Assembly: GCF_019923565.1 (NCBI RefSeq) | Contig: NZ_CP074435.1 | Span: forward strand, 219,089 to 283,088 | Direction of reading: 5' to 3' | Origin: Candidatus Schneideria nysicola | GTDB lineage: Bacteria; Pseudomonadota; Gammaproteobacteria; Enterobacterales; Enterobacteriaceae | Length of the DNA stretch: 64,000 nt | Shown: positions 33,642 to 58,644 of the stretch, piece by piece | Layout: each line of letters starts with the position of its first letter | Numbering within the stretch: position 1 is the stretch's first letter | Program-made: the position numbers and the translations under genes | The notes under the pieces: generated by a model | Told to the model about the DNA's origin: nothing | Database searches by the model: none | The model's input: the letters and a program-made list of their open reading frames with translations, nothing else

Positions 33642-34460
33642 ATGTCTGATCCTTGGATAAGTACTATAGATTTAAAATGTAGAAGATCTGATAGAGATAA
33701 AAAAACTGTTTTATATTGTCGTAAACATACTGGACCATTAATGGTCCAACATCCTTTTTATCCTGAAGGAGAAAAGAAATCTTGCCATATTTACTTATTA
33801 TATCCGCCTGGAGGGATAGTTGGAGGTGATAAACTTTTTGTTAATCTCTATATGAATAAAAATACTAAAGTTTTACTTACTATGCCAAGTATCACTAAAT
33901 TTTATTTTAGTAAAAGTTCCAAATCCTCTTCTCTTACTCAATATTTTTTTCTTGAAGAAAAGGCAACATTAGAATTCTTACCTCCAGAAACTCTTTTATT
34001 TCCAGGAGCATATGCAGAAATAACAACTTATTTTTATATACAAAAAAATTCCAAAATTATTGCTTGGGACAATTTATCTTTCGGTCGTACCGTTCTAAAA
34101 GAACCCTTCTATAAAGGAAATTGCAATTATCAATTACAAATTTGGCAATCAGATATACTATTATTATATGAAAAATTATGTATTAGTAATGGTGATTTAT
34201 CAATTATTAATCATTATCCGCTACTATCAACATTAATAGCAACGCCCGCTAATGAGCAATTATTAAATATAGTACGAAAAATTATCTACAATAAAAGAAT
34301 AATCGCAGGTGCAACTTTATTAGATTCCTCTTTATTAGTAGTAAGGATCTTATGTAATAATGATGATTATTTACGTACTATATTATATAAACTATGGGAT
34401 GTATTACGTCCAGAAATTATCGGTGATATTTCTTTTCCACCACGTATTTGGTTTACTTAA
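33642..34460 (+). CDS. ureD: urease accessory protein UreD
   Basis: Scaffold of the UreDFG maturation complex that loads nickel into urease. 272 residues. Family motifs include [27 protein letters not shown] and [13 protein letters not shown]. The Shine-Dalgarno GAAAGGAAG precedes the ATG. First gene of the cluster ureD-A-B-C-F-G, the enterobacterial order except that ureE is missing. ureA starts 14 nt after its stop. Confidence 0.95.
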
Positions 34461-34474
34461 AGAAGGAAATAATA

Positions 34475-34777
34475 ATGAATCTTACACCAAGAGAAAAAGA
34501 TAAGCTTATGTTATTTACTATCGCTCTTTTAGCCGAACGCCGTCTTGTTAGAGGAATAAAATTAAATTATCCAGAGTCTATTGCTCTTATTAGCTCCTTT
34601 ATTTTAGAAGGAGCCAGAGAGGGAAAATCTGTGACAGAATTAATGGAATCTAGTAGGCATCTTTTAAAAAAAGAACAAGTTATGAATGGTGTTGCAGAAA
34701 CACTGACCAAAATACAAGTAGAAGCAACGTTTTTAGATGGAACGAAATTAGTAACGGTATACAATCCGATTATATAG
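34475..34777 (+). CDS. ureA: urease gamma subunit
   Basis: Structural subunit, exactly 100 residues from ATG 34475, starting [20 protein letters not shown] and ending [15 protein letters not shown]. This start has Shine-Dalgarno AAGAAGGAA and equals the Klebsiella UreA length. An upstream in-frame extension into ureD has no support. Separate ureA and ureB are the enterobacterial arrangement, unlike the fused Helicobacter subunit. Confidence 0.97.
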
Positions 34778-34792
34778 TATATAGAAATTTTT

Positions 34793-35137
34793 ATGATTCC
34801 AGGTGAATTTCAATTATTACCCCAATTAATAGAAATCAATAAAGAAAGAGAAACATTACAATTACTTGTTGAAAATCATGGAGATAGACCCATACAAATT
34901 GGCTCACACTTTCATTTTTATGAAACGAATAGATATTTAAAATTTGATAGAAAAAAAACCATAGGATTTCGTCTTCATATTCCTGCAGGTACCACCATAC
35001 GTTTTGAGCCAGGACAATCACGTAAAGTTATATTAGTTCAATTTTCTGGAAAGAGAATAGTATGGGGATTCCGTTCAAAAATAATGGGATCACTCAATAA
35101 ATATCAGAAAAATAAAGAAGAAGCATTGCAAACATGA
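34793..35137 (+). CDS. ureB: urease beta subunit
   Basis: Structural subunit, 114 residues. It starts [21 protein letters not shown], followed by [19 protein letters not shown] and [25 protein letters not shown], standard UreB. Its TGA overlaps the ureC ATG by 4 nt (35134-35137), indicating translational coupling of the two subunits. Confidence 0.97.
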
Positions 35138-36840
35138 ATAAAATATCTCGTCAAGCCTATTCAGAAATGTTTGGTCCTACTATAGGCGATCGTATTAGAT
35201 TAGCAGATACTGAACTATGGATTGAAATAGAAAAAGATTTCACAACGTATGGTGAAGAAGTAAAATTTGGAGGAGGGAAAGTTATTAGAGATGGGATGGG
35301 TCAAGGTCAACTCTCTTGCAAAGAAACAGTAGATTTAGTCTTAACTAATGCTATTATTATTGATTATTGGGGAATCATAAAAGCTGATATTGGAGTAAAA
35401 AACGGTCGTATTCATTCTATTGGCAAAGCAGGCAATCCAGATATCCAACCTAACGTTAATATTCCAATTGGAGCAGGTACAGATGTTATTGCGGCAGAAG
35501 GAAAAATTGTTACTACTGGTGGTGTGGACTCTCATATACATTTTATTTGTCCTCAACAAATAGAAGAAGCTCTCATATCTGGGATAACTACTATGATTGG
35601 AGGAGGTACGGGTCCATCCACTGGGACCAAAGCCACTACCTGTACTCCTGGTATATGGAATATCTCACGTATGCTACAAGCTACAGATATCCTCCCAGTG
35701 AATATAGGTTTATTAGGAAAAGGAAGTAGTTCTTGTCCCAAAGCATTATATGAACAAGTTGATTCGGGAGTTATTGGATTAAAAATTCATGAAGATTGGG
35801 GTGCTACTCCTTCTGTAATTGATTGTTGTTTATCCGTTGCAGAATTATCAGATATACAAGTTTCCATTCATACTGACACTCTCAATGAATCCGGTTTTTT
35901 TGAAGATACAATAACTGCAATAGGAGATCGTACCATACATACTTTCCATACTGAAGGTGCGGGTGGAGGACATGCTCCTGATATTATTCGTGCTTGTATG
36001 TATCCTAATATATTACCTTCTTCCACGAATCCAACATTACCTTATACCATACATACTATAGATGAACATTTGGATATGTTAATGGTTTGTCATCATCTTG
36101 ATTCTAATCTTGCAGAAGATATAGCTTTTGCTGAATCTCGTATTCGAAGAGAAACAATTGCAGCGGAAGATATCTTACATGATATGGGAGCTTTTTCTAT
36201 GATATCTTCTGACTCTCAAGCAATGGGAAGAGTTGGAGAAGTCATATTACGTACTTGGCAATTAGCACATAGAATGAAAATAGAAAGAGGTTTCTTACCA
36301 GAAGATACAACAAGAAACCATGATAATTTTCGTGTTAAACGTTATATAGCTAAATATACCATTAATCCAGCTATTACACATGGTATTGCACATGAAGTAG
36401 GTTCAATAGAAATTGGAAAATTAGCAGATTTAGTTCTATGGTCTCCAGCTTTTTTTGGTGTGAAACCCAATTTAATATTGAAAGGAGGTATGATAGTTAT
36501 GTCACAAATGGGAGATATTAATGCATCTATACCGACTCCACAGCCAGTATATTATAGGAAAATGTTTGGTACATTAGGTAATGCCTGTCATGCTACTCGT
36601 ATAACTTTTCTATCAAAATCTGCTATAGAAAAAGATATTATAAGTACATTAAATATTAGAAGTCTATTTAGTGTCGCTAAAGATTGTCGTTATGTACGAA
36701 AAGTAGATATGATACATAATAATTTGATGCCAAATATTCAAGTTAATCCACAAACATATGAAGTATATGTAAATGATTCTTTAATAACTTGCAAACCAGC
36801 CGCCATATTACCAATGGCGCAACGTTACTTTTTATTTTAA
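35134..36840 (+). CDS. ureC: urease alpha (catalytic) subunit
   Basis: Hydrolyses urea to ammonia and carbamate with a dinickel centre. 568 residues. All active-site residues fall at the Klebsiella numbering: H134, H136, carbamylated K217, H219, H246, H272, flap C319 and H320, and D360. The enzyme is therefore predicted active if nickel is delivered. In insect symbionts urease is thought to recycle host waste nitrogen. The ammonia-assimilating enzyme is not in this window. Confidence 0.98.
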
Positions 36841-36862
36841 AAATTTTAATTATTAAAAAAGG

Positions 36863-37549
36863 ATGATAAAAATAAATAATACTATAAAAAAATTTCGTCT
36901 ATTACAGATAACGAGTAGTAATTTACCGATCGGTAGTTTTATTTATTCCAAAGGATTAGAGTGGGCCGTAGAATCGGGTTGGATTGCTAATATAGAAAAT
37001 TTTCGTCTATGGCAACAACAACAAATTGATTATACGTTAACTCGACTCGATTGGCCAATTCTTAAACGTTTATATATTTCTTATAAATTAGACGATATAG
37101 ATAGTTTTCAATTCTGGATTCAATTATTATTAGCTAATAGAGAAACAAGTGAATTAAGAGATGAAGAAAAGCAACGTGGTGCGGCTTTATTTAAATTATT
37201 TCATATTTGGGACCTTCCTGTTCCCAATTCAGATTGGAGTTCACTTATAAAAAAAAGTCAAATTAGCGGATTAGCTTGGTTAGGTAATCAATGGAAGATA
37301 CCTTTATTTGATTTAGCAATTTCTTTCGGTTATAGCTGGTTAGAAAATGCTATTATAGCAGGTATTAAATTGGTCCCTTTTGGTCAATCTACCGCACAAA
37401 TTTTACTAAAAGATCTGTCTCAATCATTAGCATATTCTTTACCAAAAGCCTTATCAATGACTGATAATGATTTAGGATCTGGATTACCATTAGTAGCGAT
37501 TGCTTCTTCTTGTCATGAAACACAATTTACGCGTTTATTTCGTTCATAA
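36863..37549 (+). CDS. ureF: urease accessory protein UreF
   Basis: Member of the UreDFG nickel-insertion complex, regulating the UreG GTPase. 228 residues, all-helical. Conserved [18 protein letters not shown] near the N-terminus, [17 protein letters not shown] in the middle, [15 protein letters not shown] later. It begins 22 nt after ureC, where Klebsiella has ureE. No ureE sequence is present. Confidence 0.94.
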
Positions 37550-37566
37550 TACTAAAAGATAATAAA

Positions 37567-38199
37567 ATGAAAAAAAACAACAGTAATAGGCAGCAGCATC
37601 CTATCCGTATTGGAATAGGTGGTCCAGTAGGATCAGGAAAAACCGCATTAATTGAAGTATTATGCAAGTTAATGAAAAGAAAATATCAACTTGCAGTTAT
37701 TACTAATGATATCTATACGAAAGAAGATCAGCGTATTTTAACTATTGCAGGTGCATTAGATCCTGATCGTATCATTGGGATAGAAACAGGCTGTTGTCCG
37801 CATACCGCTATTCGAGAGGATGCTTCCATGAATTTAGAAGCCATAGAATTTTTATGCGGCAAGTTTCATAATTTAGATATTATTTTTATTGAGAGTGGAG
37901 GAGATAATTTAGGAGCGACTTTCAGTCCAGAATTGGTAGATATAGTAATTTATGTGATTGATGTTGCAGAAGGAGAAAAAATTCCAAGAAAAGGAGGTCC
38001 AGGTATTACTCGTTCTGATTTTCTGGTAATAAATAAAATGGATTTAGCTTCATATGTAGGTGCATCCCTCCAGATAATGGAGAAAGATACGAATACTATG
38101 CGATTGAATCGACCATGGACTTTTACAAATTTAAAAGAGAGAAAGGGTTTAGAAAGCCTTCTTCTATTTTTTAGATCCCAGGGTTATCCTATCTCTTAA
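37567..38199 (+). CDS. ureG: urease accessory GTPase UreG
   Basis: SIMIBI-class GTPase that carries nickel to apo-urease. 210 residues. The P-loop GGPVGSGKT is at about 19-27, the metal-binding CPH motif in [13 protein letters not shown], switch/Walker B in [10 protein letters not shown], and base recognition NKMD. The N-terminus is Asn/Gln-rich with one His, not a His-rich nickel store. Last gene of the cluster, followed by a strong hairpin. Confidence 0.97.
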
Positions 38200-40835: not shown

Positions 40836-41672
40836 ATGCGTAAAGCAATTTCAACCGTTTCTTTATCAGGTACTTTACCGGAAAAATTATATGCTATTTC
40901 TAAAGCAGGATTTGATGCCGTGGAAATATTTTCTGATGATCTAGTTCAATTTACTGGAAAAATAAGAGATATTCGTCTTTTAACTGAAGATTTAAATTTA
41001 AAAATTGTACTATTACAACCGCTCAGAGATTTTGATGGGATACAACCTGAAAATAGAAATAAAGCTACTGAGCATGCTAAAAAAATGTTTGAACAGATGA
41101 ATAATCTTGGTTGTCAACAATTATTAGCATGTAGTACAACTGATATTTATGCTTCACCTTATATGGATATACAAATTGAAAATTTATTAAAGTTAGCAGA
41201 AATAGCTAGACAACATGATTGTTATGTTTCCTACGAAGCTCTATCTTGGGGAAGATACGTTAATCGTCTTAGTCAAGCTTGGGATAGAGTACGAATTGTT
41301 GATCATCCAAATCTTGGATTAATACTTGATAGTTTTCATGTCTTAGCTATTCAAGATAGTTTGGATATAATAAAATATATCCCTGTAGAAAAATTATTTT
41401 TTATTCAAATAGCTGATGCCGATCCTCCTCCAACACCAATATGTTCCTTTGATGAATGGAGTCGACATTATCGTTGTTTTCCAGGAAGAGGAATACTTGC
41501 TATAGAAGCTTTTGCTAAATCGGCACAACAAACTGGATATAAGGGAATATGGTCATTAGAAATTTTCAGTGATCGATATAAAAGAATCTCTCCTCATTCA
41601 GTAGCAAGAGAAGGATTGAATTCGCTAATTTCACTAGAAAACTTCCTTATACAACAACATGGTACTACATGA
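40836..41672 (+). CDS. probable 3-dehydroshikimate dehydratase (QuiC1-type TIM barrel)
   Basis: 278-residue xylose-isomerase-like TIM barrel. It starts MRKAISTVSLSGTLPEKLYA and resembles the N-terminal domain of Pseudomonas QuiC1 as I recall it (SIATVSLSGTLPEKLEAI, FEIFENDL-type, YEALAWGRHVN, VILDSFHTLS, FVQMADA, EWSRHFRCFPGQG, SLEIFND). Likely metal ligands are E134, D165, Q191 and E242, with H168 and R210 in the pocket. QuiC1 converts 3-dehydroshikimate to protocatechuate. The C-terminal dioxygenase-like domain of QuiC1 is absent here. No quinate-use genes are nearby. It follows lysA by 127 nt and overlaps convergent dapE by 8 nt. A general sugar isomerase is the alternative, but the match is specific. 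Confidence 0.75.
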   Translation: MRKAISTVSLSGTLPEKLYAISKAGFDAVEIFSDDLVQFTGKIRDIRLLTEDLNLKIVLLQPLRDFDGIQPENRNKATEHAKKMFEQMNNLGCQQLLACSTTDIYASPYMDIQIENLLKLAEIARQHDCYVSYEALSWGRYVNRLSQAWDRVRIVDHPNLGLILDSFHVLAIQDSLDIIKYIPVEKLFFIQIADADPPPTPICSFDEWSRHYRCFPGRGILAIEAFAKSAQQTGYKGIWSLEIFSDRYKRISPHSVAREGLNSLISLENFLIQQHGTT

Positions 41673-50236: not shown

Positions 50237-51073
50237 ATGGATGATTTTGCTGTATTTGGGAACCCAATTGAACATAGTAAATCTCCAGTTATTCATGCTT
50301 TTTTTGCGAAAGAATTAAAAATATCGCATTCTTATTGTCGAATTTTAGCTCCATTAAATAATTTTGAAGATACTATAAAAAATTTTTTTAATCAAGGTGG
50401 TTTAGGTGCCAATATTACGGTCCCATTTAAAGAGAGAGCGTTTGATATATGTCATCAATTTACTGATTCCGCTTTATTAACTAGAGTAGTAAATACAATA
50501 AAAAAACAAAAAGATGGTTATTTACTTGGAGAGAATACAGATGGTATTGGTTTGATTAACGATTTACAACGTCTTGATTTTTTACATAAGAACAGTAAAA
50601 TATTACTAATAGGTGCTGGTGGAGCTGCAAAAGGAGTACTACCATTATTAGCAAATTTTTCTAAAAGCATAATAGTTACTAATAGAACATTAATACATGC
50701 TGAGAAATTAATTAAATTTTATCAAGAAAGAGGAATAAGTAATATTTATACTGTTTCTCTCAATGAAGTTCATTTGGTAAATAATATTGATTTGATTATC
50801 AATGCTACCTCTTGTGGAATTTACGGAAAGATACCAACATTACCCGATTATTTAATTAATAAATCGGTTCGTTGTTATGATATGTTTTATAATACAATAT
50901 CAGATGTATACAGTGATACACCTTTCTTATCTTGGTGTCGTCAAAGAGGTGCAATATATTGTGCAGATGGATTAGGTATGCTAGTTGCACAAGCAGCATA
51001 TGCATTTTTACTTTGGCATGGAATCTTACCTCCAATTGATAAATTACTTAATCAATTAAGAACAAAGAAATAA
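50237..51073 (+). CDS. aroE: shikimate dehydrogenase
   Basis: NADPH-dependent reduction of 3-dehydroshikimate to shikimate. 278 residues (E. coli 272). Substrate motif NPIEHSKSPVIHAFFAKEL, catalytic K65 (NITVPFKERA) and D102 (ENTDGIGL), then the nucleotide-binding GAGGAAKGVLP and NRT motif. It competes for the same substrate as the predicted dehydratase at 40836. The 3' end overlaps convergent murI by 18 nt. Confidence 0.97.
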   Translation: MDDFAVFGNPIEHSKSPVIHAFFAKELKISHSYCRILAPLNNFEDTIKNFFNQGGLGANITVPFKERAFDICHQFTDSALLTRVVNTIKKQKDGYLLGENTDGIGLINDLQRLDFLHKNSKILLIGAGGAAKGVLPLLANFSKSIIVTNRTLIHAEKLIKFYQERGISNIYTVSLNEVHLVNNIDLIINATSCGIYGKIPTLPDYLINKSVRCYDMFYNTISDVYSDTPFLSWCRQRGAIYCADGLGMLVAQAAYAFLLWHGILPPIDKLLNQLRTKK

Positions 51074-52065: not shown

Positions 52066-53709
52066 ATGTTTTTTTATGATATTTATCGTTTTTATTTAAT
52101 AATTCGTACATTACTTATCTATGGATTAGATGATTTTATCCCAAAAGAACAATATACTTTATCTCTACGTTTGGGAAGAAAATTTTTCTTTTGGATCAGA
52201 AATAGATTCCAAGATCATCCATTAGGTGAACGTTTAAGATTAGCTTTACAAGAATTAGGTCCGATGTGGATTAAGCTAGGTCAAATGCTTTCTACTCGTC
52301 CTGATTTATTTTCTTCTATGGTTATACATCATTTATCTATGTTACAAGATCGTGTGAAACCACTTGATGGCAATATAGCTAAAGAATATATTGAAAGATA
52401 TATAGGAAAACCACTCACTAATTGGATATATGATTTTCAAACGACTCCTATAGCTTCTGCATCTATTGCTCAAGTACATACAGCTAAATTAAAAAAGAAT
52501 GGAAAAGAAATAGTAATTAAATTAATTCGTCCTGATATCTTACCACTTATTAAAGCGGATTTAAGTTTACTTTTTAGTTTGGCAAAATTTACATCGTATT
52601 TTTTTAAAAAGAGTAGTTTTTTTAATTTAAAAAAAATTGTTGTGGAATATGAAAAAACAATACTAGGTGAACTGAATTTATTACGTGAGACAGCCAATGC
52701 TCTAAAATTACGCCGAAATTTTAGAAAAAGTAAAATATTATATATTCCAGAAGTTTATTCAGATTACTGTAGTGAAAATGTAATGGTTATGGAACGTATT
52801 TATGGAATTCCTATTAATAATATTCAAAAGTTAAAAAAACAAAGAACCAATATGAAACTTTTAGCAGAAAGAGGAGTACAAATTTTTTTTACTCAAGTTT
52901 TTCGTGATAATTTTTTTCATGGAGATATGCATCCGGGTAATATTTTTGTTAGTTTAAATCATCCAGAAGATCCGGTATATATTGGTATTGATTTTGGAAT
53001 TGTTGGGACTCTGAGTAAAAAAGATAAACGTTATCTTATAGAAAATTTTTCTGCTTTTTTTAAACAAGATTATTATAAAGTAGCCCAGTTACATATAGAT
53101 TCTGGATGGGTTCCATTAAATACTAATATCATAGATTTTGAATCGGCTATTCGTACCGTCTGTGAACCCATTTTTGATAAACCATTGTCAGAGATTTCTT
53201 TTGGACGTATTTTATCTAATCTTTTTCACACAGCTCGTCAATTTAATATGGAAATACAACCACAATTCATCTTACTTCAAAAAACCTTATTGTATGTAGA
53301 AGGAATAGGACGTCAACTTTATCCACAATTAGACTTATGGAAAACAGCCAAACCATTTATTGAAAAATGGGGTAAAGATCAGATTAAAATGACCTCCGTT
53401 TTACGATTAATAAAGGATAATAGTTCTATTTGGATAGAAAGATTACCGGAATTTCCAGAAATGCTCTTTAGAAATTTAGAGAAGAATACTCTTCTTCAGG
53501 AAAGTATTGCTCTATTTCTAATAGAAAATAGAAATAAACATGTTAAAAATAGTCAAGCTTTTTTTTTATTTAGTATTGGTGCAATGTTCTTGCTCTGTGG
53601 AATCTTATTCCTTAAAAAAGATTGCTTGGAAGAGAAGCTATACTTTCCTATTATTTTTATAGGAGGAGCTATAGGTAGTTGGATTAGAGGATGGAATAAA
53701 TTGAAATGA
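52066..53709 (+). CDS. ubiB: ubiquinone biosynthesis protein UbiB (ABC1/ADCK kinase-like)
   Basis: Atypical kinase needed for coenzyme Q synthesis. 547 residues (E. coli 546). The KxGQ motif is in [19 protein letters not shown], the Ala-rich/Ser loop in [16 protein letters not shown], and the catalytic-like elements in [12 protein letters not shown] and [11 protein letters not shown]. Two C-terminal hydrophobic segments anchor it. It ends 1 nt before the convergent rhodanese-like gene. Other ubi genes are not in the window. Confidence 0.95.
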
Positions 53710-57951: not shown

Positions 57952-58644
57952 ATGTCCTTAATAACTTGTCAAGTTTTTTCTATAGAAAACATAACTAATA
58001 TAATCTATCGTGTACGATTAATACCATTATCCCCTATTCATTTTCGTGCCGGTCAATATATAATGATTGTAATCAATGAAAAAGATAAAAGACCCTTTTC
58101 TTTTGCTTCTCCTCCTTCGGAACATTCCTATGTGGAATTACATATTGGTCCTTCACGTTCTTGTGATTTTACAATAATTAATTATCTTTATAATAATACT
58201 TCTATACAAGTTGAAACTCCTCTGGGAGAAGCCTGGTTACGTGATGATAGTAATTGTCCTATTCTTCTAATAGCTGGTGGTATGGGATATTCATATATTC
58301 GTTCTATTCTATTAACAGTAATAAAAAATCAACCTCAAAGAAAGGTATTACTATATTGGGGAGGTAAGACTCCATCTCTTCTCTATGAAATAAAAGAATT
58401 AAATCGATTAACTCTACAAAATCCTCAAATCACTATCTTTCCTATAGTCGAATATCCAGATAATAGTTGGAAAGGAATGAAAGGTACTGTATTAGAAGCA
58501 CTTCAAAATAATAAGAGAAGATTAGATAAATATGATATTTATATAGCTGGAAATATTGCTATGGTAAAAGTAATTAGAAATTATCTCACGTTACAATATA
58601 ATGCACGTATTGATAGAATTTTTAGTGATGCTTTTTCAATATAA
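57952..58644 (+). CDS. fre: NAD(P)H-flavin reductase
   Basis: Reduces free flavins with NAD(P)H. In E. coli it supports ribonucleotide reductase activation and is linked to ubiquinone genes. 230 residues (E. coli 233). Flavin-site motif DKRPFSFASPPS, GEAWLRDD, pyridine-nucleotide motif LIAGGMGYSYIRSIL, and WGGKTPSLLYEI are all family-typical. The C-terminus IDRIFSDAFSI matches E. coli Fre. It may cooperate with yfaE in NrdB maintenance. Confidence 0.93.
   Translation: MSLITCQVFSIENITNIIYRVRLIPLSPIHFRAGQYIMIVINEKDKRPFSFASPPSEHSYVELHIGPSRSCDFTIINYLYNNTSIQVETPLGEAWLRDDSNCPILLIAGGMGYSYIRSILLTVIKNQPQRKVLLYWGGKTPSLLYEIKELNRLTLQNPQITIFPIVEYPDNSWKGMKGTVLEALQNNKRRLDKYDIYIAGNIAMVKVIRNYLTLQYNARIDRIFSDAFSI

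Follow-up and report, generated by a model that had tools for sequence, protein, structure and literature searches.

Why would a genome of 572 kb retain a gene for 3-dehydroshikimate dehydratase (DSD)? The question is raised by a 64,000-nucleotide stretch of Candidatus Schneideria nysicola (hereafter the window, C1:219089-283088 of genome G000), where such a gene lies between lysA and dapE, each of which scored over its curated cut-off. The source genome is a single contig of 572,184 bases, with completeness given as 99.58% and a GC content of ~0.26-0.36; its size, base composition and relatives suggest an insect symbiont. The answer that we propose is a two-gene branch: the dehydratase would form protocatechuate and an AroY-type decarboxylase, encoded elsewhere in the genome, would turn it into catechol. 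From the sequences we consider this chemistry likely; that the catechol is destined for the host is held more tentatively. The features on which the proposal rests are:

40836..41672, + strand: single-domain DSD of the QuiC clade, 278 aa (profile, structure, residue and tree comparisons)
C1:44902-46416, outside the window: AroY-type prenylated-FMN decarboxylase (PDB match, residues)
C1:79982-80554, outside the window: UbiX, cofactor enzyme (NF004685, 266 bits, cut-off 188)

Identity and architecture of the dehydratase

The open reading frame (ORF) begins with ATG, is free of internal stops and has the exact boundaries given in the initial annotation; its codon-position GC (0.47/0.37/0.12) is similar to the pattern in seven further genes measured in the window. 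The likeness to the N-terminal domain of QuiC1, which that annotation had noted from the sequence alone, was borne out by the NCBIfam QuiC model NF042435 (268 bits over profile positions 1-266 of 635; its whole-protein cut-off of 1200 was not reached, as expected with over half of the model absent) and by PDB 5HMQ (QuiC1), which matched at 1e-67 and is 42% identical in the structural alignment. The metal ligands E134, D165, Q191 and E242 were found where predicted. All 10 residues of the active-site set that an excerpt of PMC7442255 lists for DSDs (R64, L97, E134, L136, D165, H168, Q191, S206, R210 and E239) are identical in the G000 protein. The list alone does not single out DSDs, since IolI and Lmo2234 share several of these residues; R64, L97 and L136 are present in neither of the two. 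In a profile search the next four families (of the IolO, hydroxypyruvate isomerase and ketose epimerase kind) gave at most 32.9 bits against curated cut-offs of at least 300. The tree (54 rows, two of them non-DSD proteins, each with a very long branch) placed the protein inside the QuiC clade, apart from IolI-like proteins. Closer grouping with IolI or hydroxypyruvate isomerase, named at the outset as the result that would overturn the assignment, was thus seen in none of the profile, tree and structure comparisons, and a metal-dependent, stand-alone DSD is the supported reading of the gene.

The fused dioxygenase-like domain is lacking, as had been claimed. The two-domain enzymes QuiC1 (Pseudomonas putida, 5HMQ) and QsuB (Corynebacterium glutamicum) have the catalytic TIM-barrel domain in common with the G000 protein but differ from it by their C-terminal domain, and from its gene by the lysA and dapE neighbourhood of the latter; according to the excerpt of PMC7442255, the N-terminal domain of QsuB shows activity when isolated. 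Fused-size frames (>500 aa) were present at 78 of the 80 named loci in genome contigs, and frames below 360 aa at the other two (Edaphovirga and Pseudomonas sp. v388). The five closest homologs (G130, G078, G004, G026 and G127; 57-61% identity, frames of 277-299 aa), which belong to the same family as G000, are single-domain, so that the absence of the C-terminal domain was most likely inherited and the stand-alone form ancestral. We take G004 to be Sodalis praecaptivus and G026 to be S. pierantonius, a symbiont of weevils. The tree, which did not include the G026 row, shows the Sodalis-type DSDs as the sister group of the G000 protein. The G026 homolog has one stop inside, the match in G127 covers residues 25-271, the first 24 being missing, and the G004 gene adjoins yejA-like and mepS-like genes (named by eye). 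G127 corresponds to Sodalis glossinidius as tabulated in PMC7218078. The architecture of these proteins is alike, whereas their genomes are far larger than G000 (3.1-5.2 Mb versus 572 kb). The stand-alone form is not peculiar to the symbiont, and the DSD gene in itself is ordinary for the Sodalis group.

A putative decarboxylase for protocatechuate and the supply of its substrate

The initial annotation saw no catabolic partner for protocatechuate. This holds for what was seen within the window and fails genome-wide, where both the decarboxylase and UbiX were found. Against PDB, the three AroY chains 5o3m, 5o3n and 5ny5 scored 537-546 bits (51% identity to 5o3m) and the next structure 215. Residues R181, R188, E289, H327, K363 and H436 are essential in AroY (PMC5656893, in excerpt). 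The G000 protein keeps R188, E289, H327, K363 and H436, R181 being unplaceable in this numbering; these five and an aligned arginine (query R183) are invariant in 36 of 36 alignment rows. Thus, the five essential residues mapped are common to the characterized protocatechuate decarboxylases and the G000 enzyme, which differs from them in belonging to a separate sub-clade.

It is the sole UbiD-family match in G000. Its identification as the canonical ubiquinone UbiD was rejected: it scored 117 bits with the UbiD equivalog against a cut-off of 788, the AroY chains are closest, and UbiC, UbiA and UbiF/H/I were not found. Searches of G000 for which E. coli served as positive control found no UbiC, no member of FAD_binding_3 (presumably the family of UbiF/H/I) and no UbiA homolog other than the heme O synthase CyoE (371 bits, cut-off 285). 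Protocatechuate as a ubiquinone precursor in the symbiont was rejected on the same results. With these genes not found and AroY the only UbiD-family match, no other client was found for UbiX. Two side observations concern these families. UbiB is intact at window positions 52066-53709 (NF003404, 743 bits versus 667) despite the ubiquinone genes not found. The Flavoprotein family search of G000 matched UbiX only, and CoaBC, which we take to have that domain too, appears absent.

Two further genes of the window bear on supply:

50237..51073, + strand: aroE, shikimate dehydrogenase, which also uses 3-dehydroshikimate (NF001310, 345 bits, cut-off 221)
57952..58644, + strand: fre, NAD(P)H-flavin reductase (NF005963, 280 bits, cut-off 230)

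A type II dehydroquinase (AroQ) is encoded at C1:157605-158057 on the minus strand; no type I enzyme was found in G000. With AroQ and AroE present, 3-dehydroshikimate can be made, provided that the upstream steps exist, and AroE would compete for it; the suggestion that the intermediate is split between two routes is therefore supported.

In the proposed mechanism, the DSD would use a divalent metal to convert 3-dehydroshikimate, supplied by AroQ and otherwise passing to AroE, into protocatechuate; AroY, with prenylated FMN from UbiX, would release catechol and CO2. Fre might reduce FMN and could so supply it to UbiX. Catechol could leave by diffusion or through an exporter, for which an MdfA-family gene is a candidate. 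The branch would be kept because catechol, or what is formed from it by oxidation, is required in the association with the insect, the likeliest use being delivery to the host for chemical defence or the tanning of cuticle or wounds. The sequences document the genes, their families and catalytic residues, their co-occurrence and the lack of the ubiquinone genes searched for; we infer the activities, the direction of flux, the export and the host use.

Distribution and origin of the two genes

Among 392 genomes of the family (DSD homologs at E < 1e-30, AroY at E < 1e-100), both genes were found in 41, DSD only in 46, AroY only in 32 and neither in 273 (Fisher p 8e-13, relatedness not corrected for). 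Below 1.5 Mb, eight genomes had a DSD homolog and eight an AroY, and the sets are identical (G000, G013, G082, G118, G144, G247, G318 and G377); at least 43 other reduced genomes, among those listed, had neither (genomes without a match are listed in part). The eight span five genera. The DSDs of the seven besides G000 fall in one clade (94/87), so that there may have been no more than two independent origins. That retention in a reduced genome argues for selection on the DSD gene, as initially proposed, is plausible, and the more so because the gene is paired with AroY.

The seven small-genome homologs are 30-33% identical to the G000 DSD, and the one from Ishikawaella scored 141 bits with the QuiC model. 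They keep R64, E134, D165, H168, Q191, R210 and E239, and L97, L136 and S206 are replaced by Q, M and A; owing to this low identity and to the three changes, their function as DSDs is likely but less certain. They cluster (95/89) with a protein of G126 in which R64 is replaced by L. The gene for this protein comes directly after AroY; a LysR-like gene is found upstream and an exporter-like one downstream (both named by eye). In one genus of four 0.8-0.9 Mb genomes, the DSD homolog had dN/dS values of 0.087-0.126 (6 pairs) and AroY had values of 0.150-0.201 (3 pairs).

Two of the seven are stinkbug symbionts whose AroY goes under another name. G082 is Ishikawaella capsulata, and its 'ubiD' is described, under the ubiquinone name, as specific to it among the species compared (PMC7218078, in excerpt). 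UbiX was also seen in Ishikawaella. The AroY of G118 is 100% identical to that of pBMSBPS1, a 14,562-bp plasmid of Ca. Pantoea carbekii from Halyomorpha halys, where the gene is annotated 'UbiD family decarboxylase'. Both proteins are AroY-type and occur in reduced symbionts that also have a DSD homolog; the difference from G000 is that their DSD belongs to the distant clade, while their AroY is closer to the characterized enzymes. The excerpt of PMC7218078 also places 'ubiXD', again under the ubiquinone name, with ibpB on a Benitsuchiphilus plasmid; this gene pair was not among the plasmid matches listed (one listing holding 30 of 59 records). As a side observation, six of the seven small genomes besides G000 carry AroY on short contigs (7-15 kb; L163, L167, L169, L171, L173 and L175), beside arginine-succinyl-pathway, thiamine or plasmid-replication-like genes (by eye); the P. 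carbekii contig is the only one of these confirmed as a plasmid.

The G000 AroY groups with proteins of larger genomes in a sub-clade of 17 rows (96/91). Its nearest plasmid-borne relatives are from Klebsiella aerogenes, Pantoea dispersa and Enterobacter (61-63%). Orthology with the Sodalis-type copy of G004 and grouping with six small-genome AroYs were both rejected by approximately unbiased (AU) tests (p 1.2e-10 and 5.8e-4), for groups named after the tree was seen and with G000 as a long branch. An Hsp20 gene adjoins the G000 AroY, and its best plasmid matches come from symbionts of insects (Arsenophonus, Hoaglandella, Serratia symbiotica, Sodalis and Erwinia haradaeae); a small ORF beside AroY matches Arsenophonus plasmids at 63.6%. 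The same divergent Hsp20-AroY order is found in G000 (L127:7842-8719) and on the P. carbekii plasmid (L182:11123-13681), despite the two AroYs belonging to different sub-clades; at 29 other AroY loci, scanned over ~1.5 kb on each side, no Hsp20 gene was found beside AroY. The G000 AroY may thus have been acquired on a plasmid and later fixed in the chromosome; the branch was probably reassembled in this lineage, and independent assembly of the two-gene branch is probable. The MdfA-family gene is the second ORF past the Hsp20 gene.

A gene for an NCS2 xanthine/uracil-type permease adjoins aroY (L127:10723-12117, minus strand), and the window carries a urease cluster, ureD-A-B-C-F-G, at 33642-38199 (UreD named by Pfam, the others by eye), with no ureE ORF between ureC and ureF. 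Permease and urease may hint at purine nitrogen recycling. An excerpt of PMC9381600 reports no urease operon in the Sodalis-allied symbionts of Formica, Plagiolepis and Cardiocondyla.

Weighing the proposed catechol branch

Several observations weigh against a catechol branch. The G000 AroY sits on a long branch, in a sub-clade without a characterized enzyme in the tree. Both kinds of genome with a single gene exist (46 with DSD, 32 with AroY), and where both genes occur they are neighbours in only 1 of 41. G144 has an intact DSD homolog but a split AroY; G078 (85% complete) and G130 (81% complete) have DSD without AroY. AroY catalysis is reversible, in vitro at high bicarbonate (PMC5656893, in excerpt). 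Lastly, of the 10 active-site residues, 5 are kept in the IolI row and 7 in the Lmo2234 row.

Some of these points would suit a branch that serves the bacterium itself, for example by letting catechol or protocatechuate bind iron weakly, or that is a relic still to decay: beside the split gene of G144, the pair is decaying in the larger genomes G026 and, partly, G127, and AroY lies near regulators, UbiX or unrelated genes in three annotated plasmid neighbourhoods of free-living bacteria and, by eye, in G004. We judge this unlikely, as G000, at 572 kb, has kept both genes intact and with the catalytic residues tested, dN/dS is low in one genus of reduced genomes, and the G000 AroY, not being the Sodalis-type copy, is no plain leftover. 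That the pathway ends at protocatechuate, which would then pass to the host, as first suggested, would fit the well-supported DSD and the larger relatives G078 and G130; it sits badly with an intact AroY-type decarboxylase and UbiX in a genome where no ubiquinone pathway was found to use them, and we give it little credence. Still less probable is an AroY that acts chiefly on another hydroxybenzoate or in the reverse direction, for instance to remove host or plant catechol, the pairing with DSD being incidental. The reversibility and the 32 genomes having AroY without DSD agree with it, but DSD should provide protocatechuate in the same cell, co-occurrence is complete in the reduced genomes, and G126 has the two genes as a pair. 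A sugar isomerase or epimerase in place of a DSD has in its favour the shared Pfam fold family, IolI as second structural match and the active-site positions just mentioned; it is scarcely credible against 268 bits for QuiC versus at most 33 for the next four families, the presence of R64, L97 and L136 and the position inside the QuiC clade.

The DSD-AroY branch delivering catechol to the host is the reading that we prefer, as a possibility. In its broader form, which we put forward with the same reserve, catechol would be a symbiont-made product of insect mutualists, the branch having been assembled from different parts (a QuiC-type DSD and a plasmid-borne AroY in G000, a distant DSD and another AroY in the stinkbug gut symbionts); the host would oxidize it to o-quinone and use this in tanning cuticle or wounds or in antimicrobial defence, alongside the well-known tyrosine supply. 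In the known cases of aromatic supply by symbionts, tyrosine or phenylalanine is derived from chorismate. Among the matches listed in the open-licence PubMed Central literature, no paper was found that describes an insect symbiont as having a DSD or AroY or as making catechol. In excerpts, tyrosine synthesis is the common function of Sodalis-allied ant symbionts (PMC9381600), and Megacopta without Ishikawaella are paler and low in tyrosine, to which the authors attribute the effect (PMC9561257); 'catechol' has one match in the excerpted text of the latter, within a reference title.

What makes the case interesting is less the DSD gene itself than the two-gene branch, which recurs in stinkbug symbionts and was probably assembled independently. 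If true, our proposal would account for the persistence of UbiX and a 'UbiD' in a symbiont where the ubiquinone genes searched for were not found, and would correct the 'UbiD' annotation in two known stinkbug symbionts. Catechol would then be expected in the symbiotic insects and absent without the symbiont (Megacopta, Halyomorpha). The branch would leave the shikimate pathway by a second and shorter route, bypassing chorismate, requiring no nitrogen and yielding an o-diphenol directly.
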